This document shows positions 5,801-31,870 of a stretch of DNA of 41,032 nucleotides, one piece after another. The position numbers and the translations under genes were made by a program. Below the pieces are notes generated by a model, which ran no database searches, had not been told where the DNA came from, and was given only the letters and a program-made list of their open reading frames with translations. Every line of letters starts with the position of its first letter. The first letter of the stretch is position 1. Source of the stretch: an uncultured Lachnospiraceae bacterium (GTDB taxonomy: Bacteria > Bacillota > Clostridia > Lachnospirales > Lachnospiraceae); the NCBI GenBank assembly GCA_951801955.1, contig CATOOV010000025.1:1-41032 (forward strand). Reading direction: 5' to 3'.

Positions 5801-5917
5801 TACAAAAACAGCGTTTGCACGCTTTGTCGCGCCGAGTGCGGTCACGCAGTGACATCTTCTATTCGCACGCGTGCGCATGGTAGTTTTCTCATATAGGAAT
5901 TTCCTAATATGAGAAAA
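5801..5917 (+). repeat. Mosaic intergenic repeat, copy A1
   Basis: A GC-rich head (GCGCCGAGTGCGGTCACGCAG, then GCACGCGTGCGCATGGTAG) leads to a hairpin with arms TTTTCTCATAT and ATATGAGAAAA. The head is shared with the copies near 13.5, 13.7, 27.3 and 31.7 kb. It lies between ftsH and the GH13 gene together with the ftsH terminator. No gene is seen in 5749-6136. Confidence 0.8.
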
Positions 5918-5944
5918 AAGGCAGCTTATAGAAGCTGCCTTTTT
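5914..5944. terminator. Bidirectional intrinsic terminator after ftsH
   Basis: A perfect stem AAGGCAGCTT / AAGCTGCCTT with loop ATAG is flanked by A-run and T-run, so it can work on either strand. On the minus strand it would end the spoIIE-tilS-hpt-ftsH transcript. A second inverted repeat (TATTGGGGGGTT at 5991-6002 and AACCCCCAATA at 6027-6037) lies between it and ftsH. Confidence 0.8.
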
Positions 5945-6136
5945 AGGAGAAGGTATTTTTACTATGGGGTGTAGCAAAAACTATATAATGTATTGGGGGG
6001 TTTTTACAGTAATTATAGTATCACAGAACCCCCAATAAGTGTGCACAAACTTCACAAAAATTGTATTTTATTTTTAGTAATATTGTATAGTACTATTTTC
6101 TCATTCACCAGAATCTTCCTAGTAGTTTTGCACAAT

Positions 6137-7975
6137 TCATCCTTCAAACAACGCTTCAAACTCATCTCTGCTGATTTTTTCTTTTTCCAAAAGGAGATCC
6201 GCGCACTTGTGTAAAATCTTCTCATGTTCCAAAAGGATGGTTCTGGATTTCTGGTAACATTCATCAATAATACGCTTAATTTCCTGGTCAATCACGCTTG
6301 CAACATTCTCCCCATAAGCCCTAGCATGTGCCAAATCCCTTCCAATAAAGACTTCATCGTCATCATTGTCATAATTAATCAGCCCTACATGTTCTGACAT
6401 TCCATATTTTGTGACCATCGCCTTTGCCACACCTGTAGCCTGTTTAATATCCTGGGAAGCTCCCGTGGTAATATCGTCAAAAATTAATTCCTCGGCAACT
6501 CTTCCTCCAAGATCCACAATAATTTCCTGAAGCATTCTTCCTTTGGTATTAAACATCTCTTCCCGCTCCGGCAAAGGCATTGTGTAGCCTGCTGCACCGA
6601 TTCCTGTCGGGATAATAGAGACAGAATATACAGGACCCACATCTGGCAGCACATGGAACAAAATTGCATGGCCTGCCTCATGGTATGCTGTAATACGTTT
6701 TTCTTTCTCCGTGATAATCCGGCTCTTTTTCTCAGAGCCAATTCCTACTTTTACAAACGATTTGCGGATGTCATTCTGAACGATATAACCTCGGTCTTCC
6801 TTTGCTGCAAAAATTGCCGCCTCATTTAAAAGGTTTTCCAGGTCGGCACCGGTAAAACCTGCCGTAGTCTGTGCAATCTGTTTTAAGTCCACATCATCAC
6901 CCAAAGGCTTATTTTGGGCATGGACCTTTAAAATCTCTTCCCTTCCACCAACATCCGGTCTCCCAACATGTACTTTCCGGTCAAAACGTCCAGGGCGCAT
7001 GATCGCAGGATCCAAGATATCCACCCGGTTGGTTGCCGCCATCACAATGATGCCTTCATTAACGCCAAAGCCGTCCATTTCCACCAAGAGTTGGTTTAAG
7101 GTCTGCTCCCTTTCATCGTGGCCGCCGCCCATACCTGTTCCACGGCGCCTTGCCACCGCATCAATTTCATCAATAAATATAATACAGGGGGCATTTTTCT
7201 TCGCTTCCTCAAATAAATCCCTTACCCTAGAGGCTCCCACGCCTACAAACATTTCTACAAAATCTGAACCAGAGATACTAAAAAAAGGAACGCCCGCTTC
7301 CCCTGCAACAGCCTTTGCCAGCAATGTCTTTCCGGTTCCGGGAGGTCCTACCAACAAAACGCCTTTGGGAATTCTCGCCCCAAGCTTTGTATACTTTCTA
7401 GGGGCGCGCAGAAAATCTACCAATTCCTCCAGCTCTTCCTTTTCCTCTTTCAACCCGGCAACATTGCCAAAATTCACTTTTTTGTTCTCGTCTGTGGTCA
7501 TCTTGGCACGGCTTTTTCCAAAATTCATCATTTTATTCCCACCGCCGGATGCTGCCGCTGCATGGTTTGTCATCATGATATAAAAGATAAACAGTACGCC
7601 AAATATAATCAGTGTGGGGAGTATCGAAATCAGCCAGTTCTCCTCCGGCATCTCCTGTACCATAAACTCTTTAAAGTCATAAGATTTCATCGTCTCTTGA
7701 AGAGTATTGATATCTGACACATACAAGGTCTTTGTAACACTCCTGTTTTCCCCCTTCAAGGTTACATCTGCCTCCCCGCTGGGCACCTCCCGATTCTGGG
7801 AAATCACAACGGACACCACATGCTCTAATTCCAGATCTTGTTCAAACTGTGCATAAGTATAGACAGAGTTCTGTCCAAAACCAGAAGAACTGTCTTTTAA
7901 AACCCAGAGCAATGCCAGAATGACAATCACTGCAATATACAATCCGAATGCCCGGTAACGTCTCTGATTATTCAT
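6137..7975 (-). CDS. ftsH: ATP-dependent zinc metalloprotease FtsH
   Basis: A 612-residue membrane AAA+ protease that degrades misfolded membrane proteins and regulators. Two transmembrane helices (about 9-27 and 114-135) flank an extracytoplasmic domain. Walker A GPPGTGKT is at 210-217 and Walker B IIFIDEID at 265-272. The second region of homology ends in RPGRFDR (327-333). The zinc motif HEAGH is at 432-436. The start has GGAGG 8 nt upstream. It follows hpt by 26 nt, as in the tilS-hpt-ftsH order of many Firmicutes. Nothing is missing. Confidence 0.97.
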
Positions 7976-8001
7976 TGCAACTACCTCCTCTCCTTTCTAT
8001 C

Positions 8002-8529
8002 CTAATCATCTAATTCCACAATCCCTATATAGGGAAGGTTCCGGTATTTCTGCATATAATCAAGACCATAGCCTACCACAAATTTATCCGGTATGGCAAA
8101 TCCGGTATAATCTACCTGCACATCAATTACCCGGCGGTCGGGTTTATCTAAAAGTGTGCATAACCGCAGGCTTTTTGGTTTTCTGCTTTTCAAATTTTCT
8201 AATAAATAACTCAATGTCCTTCCAGAATCCACAATATCCTCTACCACCAATACATGTTTCCCTTCGATTGCCTCGTCCAGATCTTTCACCACTTTCACAA
8301 CGCCTGTGGACTTTGTATGGTTCCCATAGCTGGACACTGACATAAAATCAATGGAAACTGGTATGGTCAGCCGCTTTGCCAGCTCACAAGTAAAAAATAC
8401 GCCTCCTTTGAGGACGCTGACCAAATGAACTGCCTCTCCTTTATAATATTCACTGATCTCTCTTCCTATTTCACAAATTCTTTTTTCTATCTCTTCTTCT
8501 GAAATTAACACACGGATTTTCTCACTCAT
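8002..8529 (-). CDS. hpt: Hypoxanthine phosphoribosyltransferase
   Basis: A 175-residue purine salvage enzyme that converts hypoxanthine (and guanine) with PRPP to IMP (GMP). The PRPP-binding motif VLVVEDIVDSGRTL is intact, as are the SVLKGG loop and the base-binding KFVVGYGLDY region. I start it at ATG 8529 (MSEKIRVL). A GTG at 8544 would extend it by five codons but lies inside the Shine-Dalgarno GGAGG. The ATG overlaps the tilS stop by 8 nt (ATGAGTGA), which implies translational coupling. Confidence 0.96.
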   Translation of the reverse strand: MSEKIRVLISEEEIEKRICEIGREISEYYKGEAVHLVSVLKGGVFFTCELAKRLTIPVSIDFMSVSSYGNHTKSTGVVKVVKDLDEAIEGKHVLVVEDIVDSGRTLSYLLENLKSRKPKSLRLCTLLDKPDRRVIDVQVDYTGFAIPDKFVVGYGLDYMQKYRNLPYIGIVELDD

Positions 8530-9946
8530 ATAGGCTTCCTCCACTTATACGTACCTCTAAAATTCTTTTTGTATCTTCTGTTACCTTTATATCTTCGCTG
8601 ATGCGATGACCGATCACCCATAAAATATGGGATTCATCTGCCAGAAGCAAAATCTGGTCCCGTTTCTCTTTTGGTACTTTTTCGTCAATAAAATATTTTT
8701 TTAATTTTTTTCGTCTGCCCTGGGTGTCAATGACAAGATAATCCTGTTCCTGTCTAGTCCTCAATCGCATAGTACCTTTTATTTTATCATAATCAAACCA
8801 TTTCGTATATAACTTTTTGGGAATTTCTTCATTTTGAGGTATTTTATGCAATAATCTTGTGCTTATCTGATATCCATGGGATAATATGCTGAAATTTCCT
8901 GTATTGGGGAGCTCCCAGCTCCTTTGTGTGCTGTCCGCTCCAACTGTATCGATATGGCATGGCTTTTTTTTGTTTTCTTTTGTATTTCTAAGCAAAACCC
9001 CTTCATAGATCCGTTCTGCTTCCAAATCATAGGGAAGCGCCGCCTGTTTGCCGTTCTGCCTGTCAAACAATTCCCTCACTTGCTGGACATGGATCTTTAA
9101 GATATCTTTGCTGCTTTTGGCAGTGCCTGCTAAAACGTTATGAAGTACATTTCTTTGAATGGCTGGGCTCTCCTGCAGCAATTCCTGCCGAATGCAGACT
9201 CCCATGTCATTTTCAAAGACATATTTCTCCTGCGCCTGCCCTGCCAGATCTTCTAACAGTTCCACTGCTTCCATTGCAAAGGTTGCAACTTGGCTTATAT
9301 GGGAGACAGCTTGGTCATTGACCTGTGAAAGAATTGGAATCACCTGATGGCGTATTTTATTTCTGCTATAGATCAGTTCCTCGTTGGTTTGGTCTGTGCA
9401 AAATTCCTGTTTTTTTCCTGCAAGGTACCCTTCGATCTCCTGACGGGCAGCGCACAACAGAGGACGGATAATCTTCCCACGTACTGGAGGGATTCCGCAC
9501 AAGCCTTTCAAACCAGTACCTCGCACCAGATGAAAAATCATGGTTTCTGCACAGTCATTTTGATTGTGGGCGACAGCAATTTTATCTGCCCCTAATTCCT
9601 GTGCTGCATGATAGAAAAATTGATATCGCAGCTCTCTCGCTGCCTCCTCCACAGTCTGCCCATGTGTTTTTGCATATTCCTTCGCATGGCACCGGTACAT
9701 TTTATAAGGAATCTGATGCTGCCTGCAAAACCCTGCGACAAACTCTGCATCACGAACGCTTTGCGCCCCGCGGATCCCATGTTCTACATGTACCGCGCAC
9801 AGTCGAATGCCCAACTCCAAACGCAGGGCAAGCAGCACCAGCACCAAACAAAGGGAATCTGCCCCTCCTGACACCGCTGCTAAGATACAATCACCCTCCT
9901 CTACCATATGATATTCTTCCATAAACGCTCTTATTTTCTTCTGCAT
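8522..9946 (-). CDS. tilS: tRNA(Ile)-lysidine synthetase
   Basis: TilS attaches lysine to C34 of the CAU-anticodon tRNA-Ile, changing its specificity from Met to Ile. The PP-loop SGGADS is at residues 26-31 of the 474-residue form. An N-terminal ATP-pyrophosphatase domain (about 1-210), a substrate-binding middle domain and the C-terminal TilS domain follow. The open frame extends to 10039, but that region lacks family similarity and a good ribosome-binding site. ATG 9946 has AGGAG 6 nt upstream, and ATG 9952 is the other option. It sits between spoIIE and hpt, as in Bacillus. Confidence 0.94.
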   Translation of the reverse strand: MQKKIRAFMEEYHMVEEGDCILAAVSGGADSLCLVLVLLALRLELGIRLCAVHVEHGIRGAQSVRDAEFVAGFCRQHQIPYKMYRCHAKEYAKTHGQTVEEAARELRYQFFYHAAQELGADKIAVAHNQNDCAETMIFHLVRGTGLKGLCGIPPVRGKIIRPLLCAARQEIEGYLAGKKQEFCTDQTNEELIYSRNKIRHQVIPILSQVNDQAVSHISQVATFAMEAVELLEDLAGQAQEKYVFENDMGVCIRQELLQESPAIQRNVLHNVLAGTAKSSKDILKIHVQQVRELFDRQNGKQAALPYDLEAERIYEGVLLRNTKENKKKPCHIDTVGADSTQRSWELPNTGNFSILSHGYQISTRLLHKIPQNEEIPKKLYTKWFDYDKIKGTMRLRTRQEQDYLVIDTQGRRKKLKKYFIDEKVPKEKRDQILLLADESHILWVIGHRISEDIKVTEDTKRILEVRISGGSLYE

Positions 9947-10062
9947 CTCCATCTCCTGTATCTCTTTGTGGCAGCTCGGTTTCCATCTCTTGTTTTCCTT
10001 CCAAAACAATTCTTGGCTTGCCGCTCCCTGTAGCATCATCTTCTTACAGAATTTTCACCTGT

Positions 10063-11913: not shown

Positions 11914-11955
11914 AGTTTATCCTCCTTTTTCTGCCGCTCTCAGCGTGCAGGACTA

Positions 11956-11988
11956 ATTATAAAAAGAGGACTATGAAATGTTTGTCAA
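11956..11988 (-). promoter_or_regulatory. spoIIE promoter with 21-bp spacer and 0A-like box
   Basis: On the minus strand, TTGACA (11983-11988) and TATAAT (11956-11961) are separated by exactly 21 bp. Both hexamers are perfect sigma-A consensus, yet the spacing is 4 bp too long. This is the known hallmark of Spo0A-activated sigma-A promoters such as Bacillus spoIIE and spoIIG. TTTGACAAA over the -35 region is one base from a 0A box, and TTTGTCTAAA (12013-12022) is a second candidate. Confidence 0.75.
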
Positions 11989-12017
11989 AACCAGGACAAG
12001 TTTTCAAAAACTTTTAG

Positions 12018-12060
12018 ACAAAAAATCCCTTAGAATCACTGCTTTTGGCGATTCTAAGGG
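12018..12060 (-). terminator. Intrinsic terminator between divIC and spoIIE
   Basis: A perfect 11-bp stem (CCCTTAGAATC at 12027-12037 and GATTCTAAGGG at 12050-12060) is followed on the minus strand by a T-run at 12020-12025. It should end the yabP-yabQ-divIC transcript. The spoIIE promoter lies just after it. Confidence 0.8.
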
Positions 12061-12099
12061 GCTTACGTTTTTTAAGAAATTCATCTGCTTATCATGTGC

Positions 12100-12241
12100 C
12101 AATGGACCCTTTTCCTCCTGTAGTTTAAGATTATCTTTCTGTAAAATAATACTTCAGAGCCTGCATACTTGCCTTATGGGAACGTGATACAAGCGTCAGC
12201 CATCATCAACTACCCAAATGTGCCATTCTTCCGAGCGCCCC
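12100..12241. other. Non-coding stretch with nested pairing, possible structured RNA
   Basis: The interval 12061-12241 between divIC and its terminator holds no convincing gene. GTAGTT at 12120-12125 can pair with AACTAC at 12208-12213. Inside, CTTG at 12168-12171 can pair with CAAG at 12190-12193, and a short TCTG/CAGA helix is possible. I match it to no known RNA family with confidence. It may be only a 3' untranslated region. Confidence 0.25.
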
Positions 12242-12589: not shown

Positions 12590-12622
12590 TTGAAATGCCT
12601 CTCATTCCTAGGTCTATACTAT

Positions 12623-13383: not shown

Positions 13384-13483
13384 CCAAAAACCTCCTTCCA
13401 TATATCCTGAACCCATGGTATGTCCTTTTTAAATATATGAAAGAGGGGCTGTTTTATGCCTGAATTCTAAAATTATAGGCAAA

Positions 13484-13641
13484 GAACAAAAGTGCGTTTC
13501 ACGCACTTCCGCGAACTACTTCTTTTGCTCACGCATCTTTTGTTCCGCGCCGCGCACAGTCACGAAGTGACTCTTTCCTCTTGTGCGCGTGCGCATGGTA
13601 GTTTTCTCCTATAGGAATTTCGAAGGAATTTCCTATAGGAG
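13484..13641 (+). repeat. Mosaic intergenic repeat, copy A2
   Basis: It begins GAACAAAAGTGCGTTTCACG, a self-complementary AAGTGCGTTTCACGCACTT hairpin. The GC-rich head (CCGCGCCGCGCACAGTCACG, TGTGCGCGTGCGCATGGTAG) follows. It ends in a long hairpin with arms TTCTCCTATAGGAA and TTCCTATAGGAGAA. It abuts copy A3 head to tail. No gene is present in 13384-13981. Confidence 0.9.
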
Positions 13642-13860
13642 AACAAAAGTGCGTTTCACGCACTTCCGCGAACTACTTCTTTTGCTCATGCACTCCCGCG
13701 AACTACTTCTTTTGTTCACGCACTCCCGTGAACTACTTCTTTTGCTCACGCATCTTTTGTTCCGCGCCGCGCACAGTCACGAAGTGACTCTTTCCTCTTG
13801 TGCGCGTGCGCATGGTAGTTTTCTCCTATAGGAATTTCGAAAGGATTTCCTATAGGACAA
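13641..13860 (+). repeat. Mosaic intergenic repeat, copy A3, with 30-bp tandem units
   Basis: Nearly identical to copy A2, but the segment CGCACTTCCGCGAACTACTT is expanded into three tandem 30-bp units (13657-13686, 13687-13716, 13717-13746). It ends in the same hairpin with CTATAGGA arms (about 13823-13857). The units are contiguous with no spacers, so this is not a CRISPR array. Confidence 0.9.
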
Positions 13861-13878
13861 GAGAACGCCGTGTAATCC

Positions 13879-13920
13879 GCAATTCATCCCACCACTTGAT
13901 AGAAGTGGGGGATTTCTTGC
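13879..13920. other. Long hairpin resembling an insertion-sequence end, or rqcP terminator
   Basis: Nested pairing is visible: GCAA/TTGC outside, ATCCC/GGGAT in the middle and CCACTT/AAGTGG around a GATAG loop. The inner CCACTT...AAGTGG motif recurs near 19.95 and 25.18 kb. Such hairpins occur at ends of IS200/IS605 elements, but no transposase is adjacent. It lies about 60 nt after rqcP and could simply terminate it, although a T-run is lacking. Confidence 0.35.
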
Positions 13921-13981
13921 TCATGGCATGTTAAAAACCACTGGAACTTTACCTGCCTATTTCACTTTTATCCCTGCACCC

Positions 13982-14221
13982 TTACAGATACCGGAACAGC
14001 TCTTTTGCTTCCTCCTTTTTGCTGGTATCTAAGACAGCCAGCACCTCAACCTTAACATTTTTTGTTCCAAATCCAATCTCAATGGTATCCCCCACTTTTA
14101 CATCCTGGGAAGCCTTCGCCACTTTTCCGTTGACAGATACCCGTCCTGCATCACATGCCTCATTTGCAACGGTTCTGCGTTTAATCAGCCGGGATACCTT
14201 TAAATATTTATCTAACCTCAT
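13982..14221 (-). CDS. rqcP: S4-domain RNA-binding protein RqcP
   Basis: A 79-residue S4 RNA-binding protein. RqcP (formerly YabO, related to Hsp15) binds stalled 50S subunits and helps RqcH add alanine tails in ribosome quality control. The S4 core MRLDKYLKVSRLIKRRTVAN and the VNGKVAKASQ loop are clear, and the length matches. AAGGAAC lies ahead of the ATG. It sits between hup and yabP; the hup-rqcP-yabP-yabQ-divIC order is conserved in Firmicutes. Confidence 0.93.
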   Translation of the reverse strand: MRLDKYLKVSRLIKRRTVANEACDAGRVSVNGKVAKASQDVKVGDTIEIGFGTKNVKVEVLAVLDTSKKEEAKELFRYL

Positions 14222-14324
14222 ATCTTGTTCCTTCCTGAAATATCTGTTTTCTATATGAATTGAAGTGTTAAAAGATGGTTTTCAAAAAGAATGTCGGCAA
14301 ATTGCACAAATGGATGCATTCTCC

Positions 14325-14392
14325 TCTTGTACGCGTGCGTATAATTATTTTTTATATCATAAGAAACGTGAATCACTTCCCTATGATATAAA
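14325..14392 (+). repeat. Diverged mosaic repeat, copy A4
   Basis: It keeps the CTCCTCTTGTACGCGTGCGT head end and the terminal hairpin. Here the arms are TATATCATAAG and CTATGATATA instead of the CTATAGGA type. The changed but still paired arms support selection for structure. It lies between rqcP and the hup terminator. Confidence 0.7.
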
Positions 14393-14393
14393 G

Positions 14394-14419
14394 AAAAGGC
14401 TTTCTTTCGAAAGCCTTCC
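14394..14419 (-). terminator. Intrinsic terminator of hup
   Basis: Perfect stem AAGGCTTTC / GAAAGCCTT with a TTTC loop, followed on the minus strand by TTTTCTTT. It lies about 20 nt after the hup stop. Confidence 0.85.
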
Positions 14420-14437: not shown

Positions 14438-14713
14438 TTATGCGTTGATCATATCCTTTAAAGCTTTTCCTGCCTTAAATTTGGGAGCTTTAGATGCCGG
14501 AATCTTCATCTGTTCACCGCTCTGTGGATTTCTTCCTGTTCTTGCTGCCCGCTCGGAAACTTCAAAAGTCCCAAACCCCACTAACTGGATTTTTTCTCCT
14601 TTTTTCAATTCTTCTGCTACAACATCTGTAAAAGCTTTTAACGCCTTCTCTGCATCTTTCTTTGGTAAATCGGTTTTTTCAGCGATCGCTGCAACTAATT
14701 CTGCTTTGTTCAT
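14438..14713 (-). CDS. hup: HU-type DNA-binding protein
   Basis: A 91-residue histone-like protein that bends DNA and compacts the nucleoid as a dimer. The N-terminal MNKAELVAAIAEKTDLPKKD helix pair, the GFGTFEV turn and the DNA-binding arm RAARTGRNPQSGEQMKIPAS are all intact. GGAGG lies 9 nt before the ATG. A near-consensus sigma-A promoter lies about 120 nt upstream and a terminator follows the gene, so it forms its own strongly expressed unit. Confidence 0.96.
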   Translation of the reverse strand: MNKAELVAAIAEKTDLPKKDAEKALKAFTDVVAEELKKGEKIQLVGFGTFEVSERAARTGRNPQSGEQMKIPASKAPKFKAGKALKDMINA

Positions 14714-19900: not shown

Positions 19901-19932
19901 ATTCTTCCTCCTCGCTTTGTGTTCCGCAATTT

Positions 19933-20115
19933 TCATCTCATCGGAGGAGACTCCCACTTCTATACCTTATGATACACCGAATTGCCCTATGGGATGCACT
20001 TTGGGTACAAGTGGTGAGTAAAACAAATTTATCTCAGTGGGAGGTGGCCTCCGATTGAGATAAAAGCCTCCGGCGGATTGCAGGGGTGCGGATTTGTTTC
20101 GTCAGCAGAGCTAAC
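19933..20115 (-). repeat. Mosaic intergenic repeat, copy A8, in pgcA leader
   Basis: It shares with copy A7 (25157-25424) the string CTCATCGGA, CTCCCACTTCTA, CAAGTGG, TAAAACAAATTTA, CTCAGTGGGAG and GCCTCCGGCGG, in that order. CTCCCAC can pair at long range with GTGGGAG. CCACTT can instead pair locally with AAGTGG, so two exclusive folds exist. The hairpin loop is interrupted by a 43-bp insert. The rest of 20116-20325 holds only a GAACGCC/GGCGTTC hairpin near 20128-20155 and no gene. Confidence 0.75.
19963..20005. mobile_element. 43-bp insert flanked by TA inside repeat copy A8
   Basis: Copy A7 reads CCACTTCTACAAGTGG without a break. In copy A8 the same string is split as CCACTTCTA, then 43 bp, then TACAAGTGG, leaving a TA on both sides. 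The insert begins TACCTTA and its other end, read in reverse with the flanking TA, begins TACCCAAA, giving weak inverted ends. It may be a micro-insertion with TA duplication, or the ancestral state lost in A7. Confidence 0.5.
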
Positions 20116-20325
20116 CCACACCCCGCAACAAGAACGCTGATGGCGTTCTTGAATACTTATCGTGGATAAGCCCTTCCCTATTATCATACTTCAAAGAAAG
20201 ATTTTTCTCAACCATTTTTTCTGATAATTTCCAGGATTTTCATGTACTGTATCACTTTTTGCAGCTTGTTCCCACAAAATCATCTTTCTCCCAGGCAAAA
20301 CTGCCCACTGCGAATCAGCTTTACA

Positions 20326-22044
20326 CTAATCATTCCCATCAATCCGCCCACTGCCTGTCCCATTATTGTCATCATCACCATTGTTGGTAGTTCCGTTAGT
20401 ATTATCGTTTCCGTTGTTGGTATTCCCGTTATTGCTGCTGTTCCCGTTGTTATTGTTCCCGTTGTTATTGCTGCTGTTCCCGTTATTATTGTTCCCGTTG
20501 TTATTGTCGTTTCCGTTGTTGCTGCTGTTCCCGTTATTATTGTTCCCGTTATTATTATCGTTTCTGTTGTTGTTTATATTCCCGTTGTTGTTGCTATTTC
20601 CATTATTGTTATTATTTCCGTTGTTGCTGCTATTCCCGTTATTATTGTTCCCGTTGTTATTGCTGCTGTTCCCGTTATTATTGTTCCCGTTGTTATTGCT
20701 GCTGTTCCCATTATTATTGTTGTTTCCGTTATTATTATTTCTGTTGTTGTTTATATTCCCGTTGTTGCTGCTATTTCCATTATTGTTATTATTTCCGTTG
20801 TTGTTGCTATTCCCATTATTATTGTTGTTGGTATTGTTGTTATTGGTATTTGTTCTGTTATTGTTACTATTGCTGTTGGTATTCGTCCTGTTATTATTGA
20901 CTTGGTTTTGATTCCCATTGGTATTCCCATTTGTTTGGCTGCTGCTTTGTTGGGAACTTCCAGATGTGGAAACTTCTTCCTCCTCCTTTTGCTCTTGGCT
21001 GCTCATTTCAACCTTAATCTCTGCTGTGGCGGAATTTACAACCAGGGTTTTCTTCCATTCCTGATATCCTTCTGCAGTTGCTGTCAAACGATGGACGCCA
21101 TAACGCACCTGCACTGGCTGTGCCGCGCTGATTAACTCTCCGTCCAAATATAAAACTGCTGTTTCTGGTGTCAGCTTAAATTGTATCTGGCAAAATTGGG
21201 GACCTTCTCCCTTTAGTTCATCTAAATTTATTTTCGTCTCACGGTTGGCTTCTACTTTAATTTCTTTGCTTCCGCCATATCCATCATTTGCTACAGAAAG
21301 AAGATAACTCCCCTCTGCCACCTCAATCCTCATTTCCGGCGTAATTTTTTTTGACAAAATATTGCCAATGGTAATATTTCCTCCCTGAAAAAGTTCTGTA
21401 TTTTCCAACACCACCGTTCCATGTCCATTGGTGACTTGAATGGTATAAATCTGCTGCCCAATCCCTTTTATACTTACCATATCCTGGTCGCTAAGTTCAG
21501 ACAAAGAAATCTTGCTTTTTCCATGATACACCAAAAGATCTTCATCAAAAGAATAACGAATACCACCGACTGTAAAGGATTTCTTCTTTTTATCCAAATC
21601 AAAATTCTGCAGGTCCTGATAAGAAAAAGCATCTTTGGAAACCTGTACTTCTGTAAGGTTTTTCCCTCTCCTTTCAATCGTGACAAGTTCTCCTTCAAAA
21701 ATCTGGTCGATCGTCAGGTTATCCCCATATTTGTCCCTGATATATGTTCCGCCAGTGTAATTGTAAGGCTTTTCTTTGGTATTCTCACAATCCCTGAGCG
21801 TCAATATCTTATGTTCTGTGTCAATGCCAGTAATCACATAGAGCTTCTCTGGCTTTTGGCTCTCTTCTTTTTCCTCCTCCTTTTTTTCGTCGTCCTCTTC
21901 TTTCTTATTTTTGTCCTCTTTTGACTCTCTCTTTACATATACCTCGCTTCCGTCTGTAATCCTTCCTTTCTGTTCCCCGCATCCTGGCACAAAAACCATA
22001 ACGGTCAGCATCAGGACTAAAACGTATAATTTTTTCTTTCGCAA
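20326..22044 (-). CDS. PEGA-domain lipoprotein with long Asn/Gly tail
   Basis: A 572-residue exported lipoprotein. The signal peptide ends in the lipobox VPGC (Cys22). An acidic and basic Lys/Glu linker (about 38-66) follows, then a beta-rich domain (about 67-215). Two PEGA-like beta-sandwich domains (about 220-277 and 285-347) come next. Residues 361-572 are almost only Asn, Gly, Ser and Thr. The start is TTG 22044 with AGGAGG 7 nt upstream. PEGA domains often bind or span cell-wall material, but the function of this protein is unknown. It stands alone, 162 bp from the upstream CotS-like gene. Confidence 0.85.
   Translation of the reverse strand: MRKKKLYVLVLMLTVMVFVPGCGEQKGRITDGSEVYVKRESKEDKNKKEEDDEKKEEEKEESQKPEKLYVITGIDTEHKILTLRDCENTKEKPYNYTGGTYIRDKYGDNLTIDQIFEGELVTIERRGKNLTEVQVSKDAFSYQDLQNFDLDKKKKSFTVGGIRYSFDEDLLVYHGKSKISLSELSDQDMVSIKGIGQQIYTIQVTNGHGTVVLENTELFQGGNITIGNILSKKITPEMRIEVAEGSYLLSVANDGYGGSKEIKVEANRETKINLDELKGEGPQFCQIQFKLTPETAVLYLDGELISAAQPVQVRYGVHRLTATAEGYQEWKKTLVVNSATAEIKVEMSSQEQKEEEEVSTSGSSQQSSSQTNGNTNGNQNQVNNNRTNTNSNSNNNRTNTNNNNTNNNNNGNSNNNGNNNNNGNSSNNGNINNNRNNNNGNNNNNGNSSNNNGNNNNGNSSNNNGNNNNGNSSNNGNNNNNGNSNNNGNINNNRNDNNNGNNNNGNSSNNGNDNNNGNNNNGNSSNNNGNNNNGNSSNNGNTNNGNDNTNGTTNNGDDDNNGTGSGRIDGND
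20350..20964 (-). repeat. Minisatellite coding an Asn/Gly/Ser-rich tail
   Basis: About 600 bp of degenerate short repeats encode units such as NNNNGNSSNNNG and NNNNGNSSNNG. The opposite strand is rich in TTATT and CCGTT triplets, which creates long but meaningless open frames there. Copy number probably varies between strains. Confidence 0.85.
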
Positions 22045-24603: not shown

Positions 24604-24651
24604 TCTACACACCTACTCGCTCTATATTATCTGTAGTTCCAAAATGGGGCA

Positions 24652-25089: not shown

Positions 25090-25156
25090 GTCAAAACTCC
25101 TCCTGTTTTTTATTTTAGTTCTATCTTATATTATCGGCAATCTGAGCATATTTTTT

Positions 25157-25424
25157 ATCTCATCGGAAAATGCTCCCACTTCTACAAGTGGATTCGTGTG
25201 GTAAATAAAACAAATTTACCTCAGTGGGAGCCCAATCAATTCCCGATTCAGAAAAAAGCCTCCGGCGGGCGGTGGATGTCCAGTGGACATCCCGTTAGCA
25301 CCGACCGTAACGGAGTGAAGAAGCAGAGGTGCGGATTTATTTTTTCTTCTATAGGAAGACGCTTTCACGCTTTCGCGTGACAAGCCCTTTACTATAGAAA
25401 GAAAAAGTCCGCCATAGGCGAACT
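25157..25424 (-). repeat. Mosaic intergenic repeat, copy A7
   Basis: This copy joins modules found apart elsewhere. It has the CTCCCACTT...GTGGGAG part (as in A8), the palindromic GGATGTCCAGTGGACATCC and ACCGACCG part (as in A6), and the hairpin CTTCTATAGGAAGAC (as in A5 and A6) with far arm CTATAGAAAGAAAAA. It fills most of the space after the NlpC/P60 gene and probably terminates it. No gene is seen in 25090-25545. Confidence 0.8.
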
Positions 25425-25545
25425 GTAAAACATCTTAACGTATGAACCTTAACGGTTATGCATCTGCTGCATTCTGCCGGAGGCATTTGTCCTGGAAGAA
25501 GCTTCCACTCCTTCCAAGATAATTTAAGGCTGATGTCCAGCACTC

Positions 25546-27156
25546 CTACAACAAACGCCGCACGGTAATAATCTCACGGTATGTAGCATTGTCATAAGCG
25601 ACGATTCCATATGCAGTCCCTTTTGCATGGACAATCTGCCCATTCCCCATATAAATCGCCACATGACCAGCATAACAAATCAAGTCTCCCGGCTGTGCAT
25701 TGGCATAACTGACCTCTTGTCCTACAGAACGCTGTGCATAAGAGTAACTTGGAATACTGATTCCAAAATGTGCATAGACATAACTGGTAAATCCACTGCA
25801 ATCAGCGCCAGTATTCGGATCTTTCCCACCCCATACATAGGGATTTCCAACAAAGCTTAACGCATATTGAACAAGTTCACTTCCGCTGATACCAGTACTG
25901 TTTCCTGGATCAGCGTCCTCTCCGCCAGACCCTCCAGTTTCCTCTGGTATCTCAGACCCTCCGCTTTCTTCTGGTATCTCAGAATTTCCAGTATCTTCAG
26001 AGCCGCCTTCGTTTCCTGTGCCGCTGGTATCTTCAGAGCCTCCTTCGTTTCCTGTGCTGCCGGTATCTTCAGAGCCGCCTTCGTTTCCTGTGCCGCTGGT
26101 ATCTTCAGAGCCTCCTTCGTTTCCTGTGCTGCCGGTATCTTCAGAGCCTCCTTCGTTTCCTGTGCTGCTGGTATCTTCAGAGCCTCCTTCGTTTCCTGTG
26201 CTGCTGGTATCTTCAAAGCCTCCGCCATTTCCACTGCTTTCCTCTGGTATGTCAGATTCATTGTTTTCCTCTGGTATCTCACTGGAATCGTCATTGGATG
26301 CTGCAAGCTGCTGCTGCATACGTTCCAAACGCTCTTGTTCCAGGCGCTGCTGCTCTTTGCGCTCTTGCTCCCTGCGTGCCTGCTCTTTGCGCTCTTGTTC
26401 CAGGCGTGCCTGTTCCTGGCGCTCTTTCTCAATTCGTTCATTTTCCTTGGCAATAATTACATTCTGGGCATTGATCGTATCTTGATATTGTGCCGCCAAT
26501 ACCTGTGCTGCTTCCAATTTTTCGCCAAAATCTTTGGCTTCTCCCTGCTTTTGTTCAATCATGGAGCGGTAATTTGCCTCTGCAACCTGGTATTCTGCCT
26601 GCTTGTCTTTTAATGCGGCAACCTCTTTTTTCTGCTGTTTTTGCAGTTTTGCCACTTGCTTTTTCGCAGTTTCATACTCTTTCAGCAAATTCCGGTCATA
26701 GTCATACATCTCATTGACATATTCCACCCGATTCAAAAGATCAGCTATGGTTTTGGACTCCAGGATACTGGTAAGCATTGCCGTGTCGCCCTTCTCGTAC
26801 ATAAAACGAATCCGAAGCTTCATTGCCTCATATTGGTCCTTTTCGTCCTTCTTTGCCTTTTTGAGTTCCTCCTTGGTCTGCGCGAGCTCATCCTGCTTAA
26901 TGGCAAGCTCCTCCTCAACAACGGACAAATCCACAATTACATTTACCAGCTCCGCATCCAAGGCATCAATCTCTTCTTCAAGCTGTCTTTGCTGCTGTTC
27001 TATGCTGTCAATCTCACTCTGCTTTGAATTTAAATTACTCTGCGCTTCCTTCTTCTTAGACTCTGCCTCAGACTTCTTATCTGCCAAAGCAACTGAAAAT
27101 TGTGAAAATCCCATAGCCAACACCAGTAAAAATGCAATCAGCTTTTTTGATTTCAT
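25546..27156 (-). CDS. Secreted NlpC/P60 peptidoglycan endopeptidase with coiled coil and repeat linker
   Basis: A 536-residue exported wall hydrolase. The signal peptide is about 1-25 (cleavage near ALADKK). A long coiled coil (about 27-290) resembles the N-terminus of CwlO-type hydrolases and ends in a Gln/Glu/Arg-rich stretch. A Ser/Thr/Gly/Glu linker of 12-residue units (about 312-390) follows. The C-terminal NlpC/P60 domain has Cys453 (DCSGF), His498 (GHVAIY) and His510 (VHAKG), the expected catalytic set. GGAG lies just before the ATG. A separate promoter lies 40-70 nt upstream, so it is a single-gene unit. It probably cuts stem peptides during growth or separation. Confidence 0.92.
   Translation of the reverse strand: MKSKKLIAFLLVLAMGFSQFSVALADKKSEAESKKKEAQSNLNSKQSEIDSIEQQQRQLEEEIDALDAELVNVIVDLSVVEEELAIKQDELAQTKEELKKAKKDEKDQYEAMKLRIRFMYEKGDTAMLTSILESKTIADLLNRVEYVNEMYDYDRNLLKEYETAKKQVAKLQKQQKKEVAALKDKQAEYQVAEANYRSMIEQKQGEAKDFGEKLEAAQVLAAQYQDTINAQNVIIAKENERIEKERQEQARLEQERKEQARREQERKEQQRLEQERLERMQQQLAASNDDSSEIPEENNESDIPEESSGNGGGFEDTSSTGNEGGSEDTSSTGNEGGSEDTGSTGNEGGSEDTSGTGNEGGSEDTGSTGNEGGSEDTSGTGNEGGSEDTGNSEIPEESGGSEIPEETGGSGGEDADPGNSTGISGSELVQYALSFVGNPYVWGGKDPNTGADCSGFTSYVYAHFGISIPSYSYAQRSVGQEVSYANAQPGDLICYAGHVAIYMGNGQIVHAKGTAYGIVAYDNATYREIITVRRLL
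25987..26222 (-). repeat. 36-bp tandem repeat in NlpC/P60 linker
   Basis: About six and a half copies of a 36-bp unit encode EDTSSTGNEGGS and close variants (SGT, GST). It forms a flexible extracellular linker. Strain-to-strain variation in copy number is likely. Confidence 0.9.
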
Positions 27157-27194
27157 GCTTGTCTCCTTTCTATGTATTTTTGATGTTCAAAGTG

Positions 27195-27223
27195 ATTATA
27201 ACATCATATCGCCAGGATAGCAA
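27195..27223 (-). promoter_or_regulatory. Sigma-A promoter of NlpC/P60 gene
   Basis: TTGCTA (27218-27223), a 17-bp spacer and TATAAT with upstream TG (27195-27200) read toward the gene. The leader is about 35 nt. Confidence 0.75.
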
Positions 27224-27239
27224 CTAAAGAGTCTCTGAT

Positions 27240-27424
27240 TTTTTATTCTATAGGAAATACCTTTTCACGTTAAAACATGAAAGTGTCTTCCTATAGAATA
27301 AAAAATAATATGCGCACGCGCACAAGTGGAAAAATATTGCTGCGCAAATGTGCGCGGCGCGGAACAAAAGATGCGTTTGCAAAAATAATTGTTCGCGCAG
27401 GTGCGTGAAACGCACTTTTGTTCT
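27240..27424 (-). repeat. Mosaic intergenic repeat, copy A5, acting as LRR-gene terminator
   Basis: On the minus strand it begins GAACAAAAGTGCGTTTCACG, 2 nt after the LRR stop. It continues through the GC-rich head and ends in a hairpin with arms ATTCTATAGGAA and TTCCTATAGAAT followed by T-runs (27240-27308). It is placed and oriented as a terminator. Confidence 0.85.
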
Positions 27425-27425
27425 G

Positions 27426-30308
27426 CTATTTTTTTGTTGTAACCGTTTTCACTTTGGACCAATTTGAGTAAATATTCTGAGTTTTTCCCTTTACCTTTAC
27501 TGCTTTATAAGTACGGATTCGAACATAATATTTCTTTTTTGCCTTCAATTTCGTTATCTTTGCAGAGACCGTACTGTTCTTGTTAACCAAAACTGTACCC
27601 GTTGTTCCCTTGGCAAATTTACCGCTTGTAGAATACTGTATCTGATAGCCGCTTGACTGGCTTGCCTGCTTTGCCCATTTTGCCTGGAAACCTTTGGATT
27701 TTGCTGTAAGGCTTTTTATGGAAGAACCTTTTGGCAAAATAGTAAATGTCCGTTCAACGGCTCCCTTATAATTACCCTTAAATTTAATGGTTACTGTATG
27801 TACCCCTACGTTCTTCCTGTCTGTAGCATAACTTACCGTATAATCCGTTCCTTTTTTCAATGCCTTCTTTTTACTGTCCGTTACTGTGACAGAAATCGTC
27901 CGTGCCTTTCCGTTATAGGTAAGTTTCGTGGAAGACAATGTTGCAGCGTTTGGCGCATAGATCACTTGCGCTTTTTGTGATTTTCCGCAAATGGTACACT
28001 TTTTGGTGATGCTGCCATTCTTCTTCCAAGATGCTTTCACAACGGTAGATTTGTAATTATGTTTACATTCTGTACGATAGCGGTAGGTAAGACCCTGCTC
28101 TTTTGCATAGCTCTCCGCATGGCTGTTTGCATCTACCAAAAGGGTTAAACTCTTTTGGCAGCCTCCAAACATCCCATATCCCATTTCTTTCACACTGGCA
28201 GGAATCACGATTTCTTTCAGATTTTTGCAATCAACAAAAGCATACCTTCCAATCCTGGCCACAGTGTCTGGCACTTCCATTTTTGTCAGGGCGCTGCACC
28301 CATAAAATGCCATCTCTTCAATCTCTGTAAGACCTTTGGGCAGTTTAATTTCTGTCAGGGCGCTGCATCCGCTGAATGCTTCCTCTCCAATGTACTCCGT
28401 TTTCGCAGACAGTATGACTTTCTTTAAGCTGATACAGCCGCTGAAAGTTTGGGCTTCAATATCAGTAACATTTTCTGGAATCTCAATTTGCGCAAGGTTA
28501 AAACAGCCGAGAAATGCTGCTGACCCAATTGCCTCCACTTCCTTGGGCAAAGTGACTTTCGCAAGGCTGGTGCATCCCTGGAACGCACTCTCTCCCACAT
28601 AACTGATCCCCTGGGGAATTTCTACTTCAGTAATACCAGACAATCCTTGAAATGCTTCATCCCCAATTCCCGTTACCTGTTTTCCCTCCAACTGTGAGGG
28701 AAGCGTGAGCTTTGTATTTGTTCCAAGATAGCCAACCAATTCCAAAGTCCCATCACCCAAATCTTGGCAGCGATAATCCCCTTTCGTCTCCACAGAGTTG
28801 TCTCCGGGATCGTCTGGGTCATCGGGGTCGTCTGGGTCATCGGGATCATTCGGATCATCGGGGTCGTCTGGGTCATCGGGATCCTCCAGGTCGCCCACAT
28901 AACGATAGGGGATCTGATGTTCCTTTGCAAAAGCCTCTGCATAACTGTCTTTTACTACAACAAAACTTAAACTCTCTTCCTCTTCATTCCACTCACTGAA
29001 ATCTGGAACAATCTTTTGGACACTTGCCGGAAATGTAATTTCCTGCAAATCAATACATCCCCAAAATGCTGTGCCCTGAATCTCTGTTACCCCTTCTGGT
29101 ATCACCAGTTCTGTCCTGCCGCCAGGACAAACGCTTAGAGAGCTTCCGCTTTTATTATATAAAACACCGTCGATGGATTTGAATCTCTTATTGTTTTTGT
29201 CCACATTGATGTCAATCAGGCTGATACAACTGCTGAAGGGGTCAGTACCAACATTTTCCAATGCCGCCGGCATATTGACCTCCGTCAGGCTTTCACATCC
29301 ATAAAACGCTCCGCCGTCAATGCTTGCCACCGTCTGAGGTATAGTATAGCTTCCTTGCATATTCCCAGGGCAGCAAATCAATTTTGTCTTGTCTTTATTA
29401 AACAATACGCCATTCTCTGACACATAATTGGGATTGCCTTCCTCTACAACCACTGCATGTAACTCATCACAATATCCAAAGGGGTTTGACCCGATGTCTG
29501 AAAGATTTTTAGGAATTGTAACTTCCCCCACTACGCTGATGCAATGCCAGAAAGCACTGCCTCCAAGACTCTTAAGCCCTTGGGGAAGCGTAATTCCAGT
29601 TAAACTGGAACAATCTTGAAAAGCCGCGGATTCAATCTCCTCCAGCCCTTCTGGAAACTCAATTTGTGTTAAACTGATACAACTGTCAAAGGCAGACTGT
29701 CCTATTTTTTTTAGAGAGCCAGGCAGCTTAACATCCACCAGGCTGGAACATTCTACAAACGAGGAAGATTTAATTTCTTCCAACCCCTCCGGCAAAACAA
29801 GATCGTCAAGAAGGTTGCAGCCGCTAAATGTCCCCTTCTCCACGGAAGTAATTCCCTGGGGAATTGTAATTGCATCTAAATTGGCACAATTTGCAAAGGC
29901 ACCCTCCCCCAAATATGCCATGGTATTTGGAAGATTAATTTCTGACAAACTGGTACAACCATAAAAGGCATTGTCCCCAATATAGGTAATCCCTTCTTCC
30001 GGCATCGTCACCTGGACTAAATTACTACAACCCCGAAATGCTTCATTTCCAATACGGGTAACCTTTTTTCCATTCAGCTCTGCAGGAATTGCCACTTCTG
30101 TACATTCTTTGTCAGATACACTGATAATTTGCAAAGTACCATCCTGTAAATCATTGGTAATAAACTGATCTTGCTCCTGCCCTGGCTCTTCCTCCTGTGC
30201 CTCCGCCTGCAGTTCATCATTCCCCTGTGCCTGGACTCCTGTCTGTGGTATGCCGGAACATGCCAGCGCCAAGGCAAGCCCAATAGATATTGCTTTGTAT
30301 TTTTTCAT
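27426..30308 (-). CDS. BspA-like leucine-rich-repeat surface protein
   Basis: A 960-residue secreted protein. The signal peptide is about 1-28. Two blocks of about 22-23-residue BspA/TpLRR repeats (LRR_5) follow, for example IPQGITSVEKGTFSGCNLL. The first block is about 65-470 and the second about 515-725. An Asp/Pro linker of DPD units separates them. Next is a CxxC-containing segment (CKHNYKS... CTICGKSQ) and an Ig-like beta domain (LTYNGKARTISVTV). A fibronectin type III-like C-terminus (about 865-960) ends the protein without an LPxTG anchor. Such proteins bind host or bacterial surfaces. ATG 30308 has AAGGAG 10 nt upstream; a TTG two codons earlier is less likely. Confidence 0.9.
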   Translation of the reverse strand: MKKYKAISIGLALALACSGIPQTGVQAQGNDELQAEAQEEEPGQEQDQFITNDLQDGTLQIISVSDKECTEVAIPAELNGKKVTRIGNEAFRGCSNLVQVTMPEEGITYIGDNAFYGCTSLSEINLPNTMAYLGEGAFANCANLDAITIPQGITSVEKGTFSGCNLLDDLVLPEGLEEIKSSSFVECSSLVDVKLPGSLKKIGQSAFDSCISLTQIEFPEGLEEIESAAFQDCSSLTGITLPQGLKSLGGSAFWHCISVVGEVTIPKNLSDIGSNPFGYCDELHAVVVEEGNPNYVSENGVLFNKDKTKLICCPGNMQGSYTIPQTVASIDGGAFYGCESLTEVNMPAALENVGTDPFSSCISLIDINVDKNNKRFKSIDGVLYNKSGSSLSVCPGGRTELVIPEGVTEIQGTAFWGCIDLQEITFPASVQKIVPDFSEWNEEEESLSFVVVKDSYAEAFAKEHQIPYRYVGDLEDPDDPDDPDDPNDPDDPDDPDDPDDPGDNSVETKGDYRCQDLGDGTLELVGYLGTNTKLTLPSQLEGKQVTGIGDEAFQGLSGITEVEIPQGISYVGESAFQGCTSLAKVTLPKEVEAIGSAAFLGCFNLAQIEIPENVTDIEAQTFSGCISLKKVILSAKTEYIGEEAFSGCSALTEIKLPKGLTEIEEMAFYGCSALTKMEVPDTVARIGRYAFVDCKNLKEIVIPASVKEMGYGMFGGCQKSLTLLVDANSHAESYAKEQGLTYRYRTECKHNYKSTVVKASWKKNGSITKKCTICGKSQKAQVIYAPNAATLSSTKLTYNGKARTISVTVTDSKKKALKKGTDYTVSYATDRKNVGVHTVTIKFKGNYKGAVERTFTILPKGSSIKSLTAKSKGFQAKWAKQASQSSGYQIQYSTSGKFAKGTTGTVLVNKNSTVSAKITKLKAKKKYYVRIRTYKAVKVKGKTQNIYSNWSKVKTVTTKK
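28804..28893 (-). repeat. DPD-coding 9-bp repeat in LRR protein
   Basis: Short repeats encode an Asp-Asp-Pro linker between the two LRR blocks. The acidic stretch may bind calcium, but that is a guess. Confidence 0.85.
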
Positions 30309-30501
30309 AACCAAACTTCTCCTTCCCTATACTTTATGTTGGTTTAAGACTGGATTTGGCGAGTTTTGGCGCGGGATTCTGTCCAGCTTTTGCTGGCATC
30401 TACCTTTTTAGACTCACTCGCGCCCTCGCAAAGCGCATATAGCTTATACAACATCTGATTTAATATTATGACAAAAGTTGGTATATTTCAAGCCCAAAAA
30501 A

Positions 30502-30535
30502 GGGCTGTCGCTGAATTACATTTTCAGGACAACCC
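30502..30535 (-). terminator. Hairpin terminator at left edge of plus-strand island
   Basis: On the minus strand GGGTTGTCCTGAA pairs with TTCAGCGACAGCCC, followed by TTTTTT. No minus-strand gene ends here now. A related hairpin lies at 31893-31925 after sipL. The remaining 30309-30501 stretch before the LRR gene holds no gene that I can see. Confidence 0.7.
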
Positions 30536-30652
30536 ATTTCATCAGAGGACACCAAGGAAAAGTTGGAACAGCGTGGCGCCTTTGCCGTGTCTCATATAGT
30601 ATTTTTTATTCTTAAAACTTGTAAAACAGTGCTCCTTCCTTCTATAAAAGCC

Positions 30653-31512
30653 ATGCCTGAACTGCCAGAAGTAGAGACAGTCAAACGGGTATTAGAACCA
30701 CAGATAAAAGGACTGTACATCAATCATGTGACTGTCCGACGACCGGAGGTTGTCGCACACCCTTCAGCGGAGGAATTTTGCGCGCTGCTGACAGGGCAGC
30801 ACATTTCCAACATGATGCGCAGGGGAAAATTTTTAGGCGTGTCATTGGACAGCGGCGATTATTTTGTGCTTCACCTTAGGATGACAGGAGGACTTTTGTT
30901 TACACCCCTGATTACCCGGAGGAAAAGCACACGCATATCATTTTTAAAATGAGCAATGGCTATGAACTGCGTTTTTCCGATACCCGCCGTTTCGGAAGAT
31001 TTTGGTTCCTACAAAAAGGTGAGACAGATACACACAGCGGCATTGCCAAGCTGGGTCTGGAACCGTTCGACAAAAATATGACTGCCGATTACCTGCAAAC
31101 ACATTTTGGAAAATGCAAGAAAACCATAAAAGAATGCCTGCTGGAACAGAACGTAATCGCAGGCATCGGCAATATTTATTCTGACGAAATCCTCTTTACC
31201 GCAGGAATTTATCCTGGACACCGTGCAGACAGCCTGACAAAACATGAGTGGCAGTGTCTTGCCACGGTAATTCCGGAACGCCTTTCTTATTTTATAAACA
31301 AAAATAAGATTTCGCCGGAAGACTATCTGCAAAGCAAAGGGAAGGACTACCACAATACGCCGTTTTTACAGGTTTACGGACATAACGGCAAACAATGCCC
31401 AAAATGCCTGGAATCCTTTTGCCGTACGGTAATCGGCGGACGCAGCAGCGTCTATTGCCCATCGTGCCAAAGCCATGAAAAAGAAGGCAGATATTATGAA
31501 AATTGCCGTTAG
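30653..31512 (+). pseudogene. mutM: Frameshifted formamidopyrimidine-DNA glycosylase
   Basis: MutM removes 8-oxoguanine and other oxidised purines from DNA. The N-terminal MPELPEVETVKRVLEPQ with catalytic Pro2 and Glu3 is intact. So are MMRRGKFLG, QNVIAGIGNIYSDEILF and the zinc finger (CPKC and YCPSC). The frame breaks at the C-run 30905-30908. One more C would join TPPDYPEEKHTHIIFKMSNG and give about 287 residues, the normal length. As written, the first part stops at 30952 after a nonsense tail. No Shine-Dalgarno precedes ATG 30653. It is the only recognisable full gene on the plus strand here. A sequencing error in the C-run is possible. Confidence 0.85.
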
Positions 31513-31639
31513 TTATAAAAATGAAACTATTTTTGAACACTTTGGACATACCAGGCAATCCTAAGTAATGTGGCATTGCAGCCATCATGGCGACCATGGA
31601 AAAGGACACCAATGTGCACAGGAAATGAGAAAAGAATAA
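31496..31639 (+). pseudogene. Internally deleted NifX/NafY-like (dinitrogenase FeMo-cofactor family) protein
   Basis: Not on any long open frame. ATG 31496 overlaps the mutM end and gives MKIAVSYKNETIFEHFGHT, the typical start of small dinitrogenase iron-molybdenum cofactor family proteins. A stop follows at 31562. In the same frame the sequence then reads HCSHHGDHGKGHQCAQ to a stop at 31637. This is like the His/Cys-rich tail of the same family. The middle, roughly 80-100 residues, is missing. A mutM neighbour of this family fits Lachnospiraceae arrangements as I recall them. Confidence 0.65.
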
Positions 31640-31659
31640 AAAGGACAAGCCCCTTATTC

Positions 31660-31870
31660 ATGAGGGGGGCTGGACATCCAATGGATGTCTGTTTGGCGCC
31701 GACCGAAGCAGGGCACAGACCTTGGCTGCTTTGCTGCGCCGAGTGTGGTCACCCAGTGACCTCTTCCATTCATATGAGTGCGCATATTATTATTTCTTCT
31801 ATAGGAAGACACTTTCACGCCTTGATGTAACAAGGTTTTTCTTATAACAGAAAAAGCCCGCAAGGCGAGC
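31660..31870 (+). repeat. Mosaic intergenic repeat, copy A6
   Basis: It carries the GGACATCCAATGGATGTC palindrome and ACCGACCG (as in A7). The head TGCGCCGAGTGTGGTCACCC is close to A1. The CTTCTATAGGAAGACACTTT hairpin start and the AAGCCCGCAAGGCGAGC tail follow. It sits downstream of the plus-strand mutM remnant. No gene is seen in 31640-31930. Confidence 0.8.

Follow-up and report, generated by a model that had tools for sequence, protein, structure and literature searches.

The window analysed here is a 41,032-nucleotide stretch of DNA from an uncultured Lachnospiraceae bacterium (contig CATOOV010000025.1 of assembly GCA_951801955.1), one of the 164 contigs (C25) of a genome of 3.62 Mb that is 88.8% complete. 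Its intergenic regions carry members of a family of structured repeats, further referred to as units. The family is real and widespread, has an unusual targeting signature and is undescribed in the sources searched. On balance we favour the view that the units are mobile elements of Lachnospiraceae-type bacteria, non-coding and non-autonomous, whose insertion sites lie immediately behind intrinsic transcription terminators. This view is based on the high copy number, the abrupt boundaries, the position of one unit end at terminators, the direction of the neighbouring genes, the variation at an orthologous site next to the HU gene and the replication-strand bias. Judged from the sequences, mobility of the family is likely, and of the three options put forward in the original prediction (non-autonomous mobile elements, spreading terminators or structured RNAs) the first is the best supported. 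Terminator adjacency, the strand bias, the spread over many genera and the separation of two repeat families were absent from that prediction.

Aligned copies read on the + strand share a common plan: a head made of an A-tract and a hairpin comes first, followed by a conserved core of 51 nt (P2) and a palindrome rich in AT (P3); many copies have a 4-bp hairpin and a T-run between P2 and P3. The length of a unit is about 100–170 bp. The head of the own-genome type reads AACAAAAGTGCGTTTCACGCAC.., and further head types are AACAAAGTGGGCAAGCCCAC.., AACAAAGCGGACAGGTCCGC.. and AAAAGAATGCG..CGCATTCT. In other genera a compact hairpin of at least 8 bp directly precedes P2 in 35 of 41 copies, and an A-rich run precedes this hairpin in 25 of 41. 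Left boundaries of the aligned copies are abrupt and follow unrelated flanks. In arrays the units, ~157 bp each, are arranged head to tail, the next head beginning where P3 ends.

Repeat finding combined with reading of the sequence located modules of the family at positions 5801, 13484, 13641, 14325, 25157 (last part), 27240 and 31660 of the window. The core model detected five full P2 copies, four on the + strand and one (27310–27361) on the − strand; a sixth row with an E-value of 0.23 is at chance level and was not counted. Of the eight copies originally proposed, seven sites carry modules of the family, while a second repeat family accounts for 19933 and for the first part of 25157. The copies at 13484 and 13641, initially listed as separate, are head-to-tail units of one array. 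The proposed mosaic structure held, the modules being combined differently among the copies of the window. In addition, the head of the second array unit contains extra 30-nt direct repeats (13670–13740), which indicates that single modules expand on their own too.

The family-wide search with a covariance model, suggested in the original prediction, was carried out using the P2 core. The genome of origin contains at least 149 cores, a number close to the scoring limit of 150 candidates, and three congeners, G017, G044 and G024, contain 81, 87 and 78, respectively. When the best unit served as a blastn query, the own genome yielded 74 matches, many of them in head-to-tail arrays and several at contig ends. 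Blast matches to the own unit were found in 18 of 25 genomes of the genus and in none of 16 genomes from other families of the order. The survey model, R1, was applied with E-values up to 1e-4, strict filters and no more than 19 candidates scored per genome, so that the copy numbers per genome are lower bounds. It detected the core in 78 of 299 genomes, representing 77 of 298 sampled genera of the family; the other 221 genera gave no match under these filters. Two or more matches were obtained in 53 genomes and a single one in 25, the calibration being rough and some single matches possibly due to chance. In a separate scan, the 80 stretches listed of at least 91 were assigned to Lachnospiraceae, Roseburia or Eubacterium, or to Clostridia, Clostridiales or Eubacteriales. 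We found no description of the family in the open literature searched, closed journals being outside the scope. The accessible part of a survey of stem-loop families from other genomes does not name Lachnospiraceae (PMC2267715).

P3 usually lies next to a terminator-like hairpin. P3 ends were oriented by the P2 end, and copies consisting of P3 only were excluded; of 127 oriented ends, 29 run into another head. A terminator-like hairpin (score of at least 7, start at most 16 nt away) was found at 65 of 95 P3 ends that had sufficient flank and no following head. At positions shifted by 100, 200, 400, 800 and 1500 nt the numbers were 18/94, 14/93, 9/87, 8/84 and 5/49 (10–19%), these controls falling partly inside genes, so that the intergenic context is unmatched. 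In other genera, the hairpin is present beside P3 in 30 of 41 cases versus 9 of 41 at +500 nt. On the side of P3, the neighbouring gene is directed towards the element in 75 of 88 cases, and in 55 of 70 in a separate set of 71 copies, both counts resting on simple longest-ORF (open reading frame) calls. Hence the usual order on the opposite strand is gene, its terminator, T-tract, P3, P2, head. The hairpin adjoining P3 is the terminator of the neighbouring gene and is unrelated to the element. The notion of spreading terminators is partly right for another part of the unit: several head modules resemble intrinsic terminators when read on the minus strand (by eye). A consensus terminator scan called the head of the reversed copy (27399–27417) and a head remnant (5823–5810), as well as P2 hairpins on the + strand, but missed the A-type heads of the units at 13484 and 13641.

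One truncated copy of the window lies between an S4-domain gene and the HU gene, and this site was compared among relatives. Of 29 genomes searched, 24 were used; two were unmatched, and three had one gene missing or split contigs (loci L276–L278 duplicate L252, L263 and L250). Compared by eye, most of the 24 genomes retain the HU terminator. Different clear elements abut it in seven of the 24 (the own genome, L251, L254, L258, L263, L264 and L265), remnants are seen in four (L250, L257, L270 and L272), L255 is doubtful, and twelve have none. L263 contains about four units in 778 bases. The presence, type and number of elements at this single fixed point vary between congeners, a pattern expected from repeated insertion with loss, and the truncated copies may reflect erosion. 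In L252, L266 and L271 another palindromic element with GGGCTGTTGCA-like ends occupies the same HU terminator site (by eye), so that elements of more than one kind are drawn to it. The HU/S4 intergenic regions of L264 (G017) and L265 (G044), genomes held as different species, are nearly identical over 1007 bases and contain what seems to be a small gene pair along with two units of the family; they are a good pair for studying insertion polymorphism. A third short repeat (14265–14318), with about a dozen other matches in the own genome, adjoins the truncated element of the window.

Orientation of the units follows replication beyond the bias of genes in the two genomes that this analysis covers, G308 and G044; the other three single-contig genomes contain 9, 8 and 5 model matches, and G041 contains 8. 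G308 is one contig of 4,521,945 bases, in which the sign of the GC skew changes between samples at 1.12–1.20 Mb and at 3.45–3.60 Mb. All 47 of its model matches are placed with the + strand of the element as the lagging one, one copy (1.159 Mb) sitting where the skew switch falls. Of 255 sampled genes, 215 are on the leading strand, and the copies differ from them (Fisher p 0.0015). With the boundary set by skew in the congener G044, 81 of 86 copies agree versus 144 of 196 genes (p 2e-5). After removal of the copies in the switch intervals and collapsing of the arrays, the counts were 41/41 (p 0.0025) for G308 and 67/71 (p 8e-5) for G044. The genes were sampled from 20 stretches per genome, and highly expressed genes with strong terminators may exceed the strand bias of the average gene, which may contribute to the difference. 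Skew is negative throughout the window, where four of the five full cores are on the + strand. Such uniformity, with 47/47 and 81/86 copies in one orientation, might suggest that the units are selected for replication orientation, as are polar chromosome-segregation motifs, and were multiplied for their usefulness there. We regard this as very improbable, given that many genomes contain few copies, most sampled genera are unmatched, and tight adjacency to terminators is unexpected for such motifs.

The arms of P3 pair far beyond chance. The original prediction had noted that each terminal hairpin pairs with its own far arm while the sequence changes, and this was upheld. The window and overlapping loci (247 sequences) contain 378 TAGGAA..TTCCTA hairpins, and in 307 of these the outer 7-nt arms show no more than one mismatch. 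When the right arms were shuffled among the 378 hairpins the mean was 116 and the maximum 140; in these counts related copies are non-independent, and palindromes are scored on both strands. Visual inspection shows imperfect pairing of the arms at 25157 and 31660, and a P3 sequence that varies between genera with the pairing kept. However, P3 pairing alone is no proof of selection, because template-switch correction can also keep perfect palindromes. The P2 core provides better evidence for selection on pairing.

A sequence-only profile of P2 yielded 261 matches, 170 of them distinct and 144 near-full; since its seeds were chosen with a pattern requiring the inner hairpin, this profile is partly structure-aware. 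When whole 3' arms were shuffled among the copies, the middle helix had 728 Watson-Crick cells versus a shuffled mean of 646 (maximum 667), and the inner helix had 656 versus a mean of 485 (maximum 516). In the outer helix, which hardly varies, the arm shuffles showed no covariation effect (516 versus 517). Covariation was then measured in an alignment of 47 sequences (of 48 picked). Cells changed on both sides numbered 74 versus 25.5 in shuffles, and the covariation score equaled 0.319 versus 0.198 shuffled and at most 0.152 when slid; none of 500 shuffles was as high by either measure. Two further measures were weak: the number of further pair types was 22 versus 21.2 (192 of 500 shuffles as high), and that of pairs with a double change was 9 versus 6.6 (24 of 500). 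Kinship of the copies inflates all covariation counts. The P2 core covaries beyond shuffled and slid controls, and the covariation that had originally been seen by eye is thereby borne out.

The fold of P2 seems to form on the + strand. A tandem G-A motif (CGAG facing CGAG), replaced by two G-C pairs in many copies of the own genome, is retained in 37 of 42 distinct P2 copies of other genera. On the + strand, G-T mismatches prevail over A-C ones, 84 to 28 in the 66 copies with an own-genome head (here two alternative head pairings share sites, and the copies are related, so the counts are non-independent) and 35 to 9 in other genera. Together the tandem G-A motif and the excess of G-T over A-C point to the + strand as the folded one. 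Mutation bias accounts for only a small part of this signal: in unpaired columns the ratio (C>T + A>G)/(G>A + T>C) is about 1.2, whereas the G-T/A-C ratio is 3.0. A + strand fold is compatible with RNA and single-stranded DNA alike, and the mismatch data do not separate the two.

These features bear on two other explanations. Passive multiplication of hairpin-prone DNA by replication slippage or template switching at fork-stalling hairpins, with the palindromes kept by template-switch correction, would agree with the tandem arrays, the 30-nt duplications within a head, the replication-oriented copies and the changes of P3 between genera with its pairing retained. It leaves unexplained how copies came to be scattered over many unrelated sites, one end lying at a terminator, as well as P2 covariation with a one-strand preference for tandem G-A and G-T, and we consider it rather unlikely. 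Somewhat less unlikely, though still improbable, is a module serving the host at gene ends, either as a terminator (back-up or bidirectional) or as a + strand structured RNA, that spread passively and was retained by selection. The strong covariation of P2, its strand-specific features, the occurrence in 77 of 298 genera and the terminator-like heads (in part by the scan, otherwise by eye) fit such a role. On the other hand, most sampled genera (221) are unmatched, presence, type and number at the HU site differ even between congeners, and no common promoter-like sequence was seen by eye in the left flanks. Structured RNAs, one option of the original prediction, would fit the strand bias of the fold, but the folded strand is antisense to the upstream gene, and by eye the left flanks share no promoter-like sequence.

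The closest parallel to the favoured mobile-element reading is provided by class C group II introns, which are reported to insert immediately downstream of Rho-independent terminators and to target the lagging-strand template (PMC8919778); PMC3898094 cites the group IIC target papers likewise in the part seen. The units similarly tend to sit right behind intrinsic terminators (65/95, and 30/41 in other genera) and show a lagging-strand template bias (47/47 and 81/86). Unlike these introns, they have no Rfam group II match (in the window and 10 and 17 further loci), are only about 100–170 bp long and hold no reverse-transcriptase ORF; nor was a recurrent reverse-transcriptase-like ORF seen by eye beside the copies among 990 ORFs. 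The units are not group IIC introns. By analogy, the same target may mean the same kind of mobility.

From the position, orientation and strand of the copies, the target would be the terminator hairpin with its T-tract, single-stranded on the lagging-strand template. A resident copy could become a new target, as its head is again an A-tract plus hairpin; targeting of resident heads would yield the head-to-tail arrays and mosaics, as suggested by the sequence and backed in part by the terminator scan. P2 and P3 are probably the recognition sites of an enzyme acting in trans. A position behind a terminator could be a safe haven, where an element would be hardly transcribed and would disrupt no gene, and the head may serve as a back-up terminator. 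Much more speculatively, and in our opinion improbably, the units could be a bacterial counterpart of SINEs, a short structured + strand RNA ending in P3 and an A-tract that has colonised terminators across much of the family. Such an RNA would pair with the terminator T-tract exposed on the lagging-strand template and be copied by a reverse transcriptase acting in trans.

Several observations weigh against terminator-targeted mobility. The strand that folds (+) is not the one expected to enter the lagging template but its complement. No scored hairpin was found at 30 of the 95 tested P3 ends, although on visual inspection some of these look like hairpins that are longer or irregular, or like another head. 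G044 contains five orientation exceptions. The complete reversed unit of the window (27239–27424) is an exception as well, with no terminator seen by its P3, which is upstream of ORF 25546–27156. Clustering of the 990 ORFs from loci L001–L231, judged by eye from translations with no family search, revealed no cluster resembling a mobility gene. Y1 transposase had no match in the repeat-rich genomes G024, G009, G010, G012 and G002. Reverse transcriptase had none in G024, G010 and G002 or, in other genera, in 5 of 12 copy-rich genomes. Searches with 108 joined flanks returned matches to tandem units or other repeats and no clean empty site or target duplication. Phage records gave no match to one own-genome unit, and plasmid records gave none to one unit of another genus. 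In viral contigs, a shorter pattern yielded no core by the model in the 80 listed of 109 stretches, and the species-type pattern gave 0 matches.

Candidate drivers and signatures were rejected as follows. Recurrent ORF clusters are repeats read as ORFs or ordinary gene families (by eye), in agreement with the original statement that no protein is encoded, and no autonomous gene-carrying copy was seen among them. Y1 transposase was dropped as the driver, as its presence does not track unit blast matches over 25 congeners; Y1 matches occur in G007, G011, G015 and G018, all without a blast match to the unit. Reverse transcriptase as a current driver was rejected, being unmatched in several copy-rich genomes. 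Truncation at the 5' end, which would point to target-primed reverse transcription, does not characterise the family in general. Among 13 P3 ends that have a terminator-like hairpin outside the scanned pattern, a full core of one type or another was seen by eye in ten, and the remaining three are a truncated P2, an end with no recognisable P2 and a chance match. GNA triloops as a sign of single-stranded DNA were dropped because the loops are too variable, and copying of the variable P3 arms from the target was dropped because the arms differ at the same HU site (both by eye). Known RNA families were ruled out by Rfam scans of the window and 10 and 17 further loci, in which no family reached its gathering score over the copies. 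Matches far below this score were to hairpins only (miRNA families and one sRNA family), the best reaching 38.7 bits versus a gathering score of 88. Covariation and shared boundaries are present, and no Rfam family matches the repeats at threshold; the outcomes named as refuting the original prediction were not seen.

Interspersed, structure-forming, non-coding repeats also include bcr1 of the Bacillus cereus group and ERIC. The units resemble these by description only, as interspersed structured non-coding repeats. Like REP and REPIN sequences mobilized with RAYT (Y1) proteins, they are high-copy palindromic extragenic repeats (PMC3733652, in part), and the logic of a single-stranded hairpin and the lagging strand is shared with IS200/IS605 and REP in the available parts of PMC3733652 and PMC6006769. 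In contrast to REP/REPIN, the units are several times longer, have a conserved core, lack a match to Y1 transposase in several repeat-rich hosts and, by eye, have no constant GTAG or CGTC tag; GTAG precedes P3 in some own-genome copies only, others having ATTTATT, ATTATT or CCTGCCC. The left end AACAAAAG.. and the right end ..ATATGAGAAC form no inverted repeats (by eye), which distinguishes the units from MITEs. Pneumococcal BOX, RUP and SPRITE are likewise modular composite intergenic repeats with predicted stem-loops, and SPRITE looks terminator-like, as far as the accessible text of PMC3049150 describes them. They differ in the host, whereas the units here have a covarying core, one end at the terminator of a neighbour and a replication-strand bias; the comparison with BOX draws on its published description.

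Table 1. Repeat units and adjoining features of the window.
Feature	Position	Strand	Evidence
Element: degenerate head 5809–5827, P2 5828–5878, P3 about 5884–5919	5809..5919	+	P2 by model, 70.2 bits; sequence
Terminator-like hairpin GGCAGC..GCTGCC (5920–5939), unrelated to the element and abutting it	5920..5944	-	Sequence, ORFs
Array unit 1: A-type head 13483–13545, P2 13546–13596, P3 about 13603–13643	13483..13643	+	Repeat finding, model
Array unit 2: head enlarged by 30-nt repeats, P2 13763–13813, P3 about 13820–13860	13640..13860	+	Repeat finding, model
Truncated P2 and P3, between S4-domain gene (13982–14221) and HU gene (14438–14713)	14321..14393	+	Sequence; genes by Pfam
Intrinsic terminator of the HU gene, abutting the element	14394..14419	-	Called by terminator scan; conserved at the orthologous site of most relatives (by eye)
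Member of the second repeat family, not of this family	19930..20130		Repeat finding, blast
Same second repeat family, not this family; next to the P3 at 25330	25152..25230		Repeat finding, own-genome matches
P3 of the long-loop type, no recognisable P2 of its own	25330..25408	+	Sequence; own-genome matches
Complete reversed unit: P3 about 27239–27307, P2 27310–27361, head 27362–27424	27239..27424	-	Repeats, terminator scan, model
P2 31735–31785 and degenerate long-loop P3	31735..31857	+	Sequence, model

The hairpin at 5920–5939 (Table 1) has an A-run on one side and a T-run on the other and lies downstream of the minus-strand ORF 6137–7975; it was not called by the consensus terminator scan. 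By eye, a terminator-like hairpin follows the P3 at 25330–25408, and an imperfect one is located past the element at 31735–31857. The module shared by 19933 and 25152 to about 25230 (D15, D18) differs from the P2/P3 family. This second family is high-copy (43 and 30 blast match rows, from fetched, partly overlapping loci) and by eye looks like IS200/IS605 ends; no match to it was found around the full Y1 gene of the own genome (stretch L397). The sole Rfam match at threshold within the window is a RAGATH-18 RNA at 39785–39859 on the minus strand (77.5 bits versus the gathering score of 44.9). Long ORFs with internal tandem repeats are present at 20326–22044 (15–21 nt units) and 28800–28900 (9 nt units).

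This study yields a reusable 51-position covariance model for a family that is unrecognised by Rfam scans. If the proposed mobility holds true, a minimal non-coding element, present in many genera related to major gut commensals, would share the terminator and lagging-strand targeting of group IIC introns. The family would then provide a clean system for studying the invasion of single-stranded fork hairpins and the source of the enzyme, and a way to ask whether such elements tune read-through between neighbouring genes.

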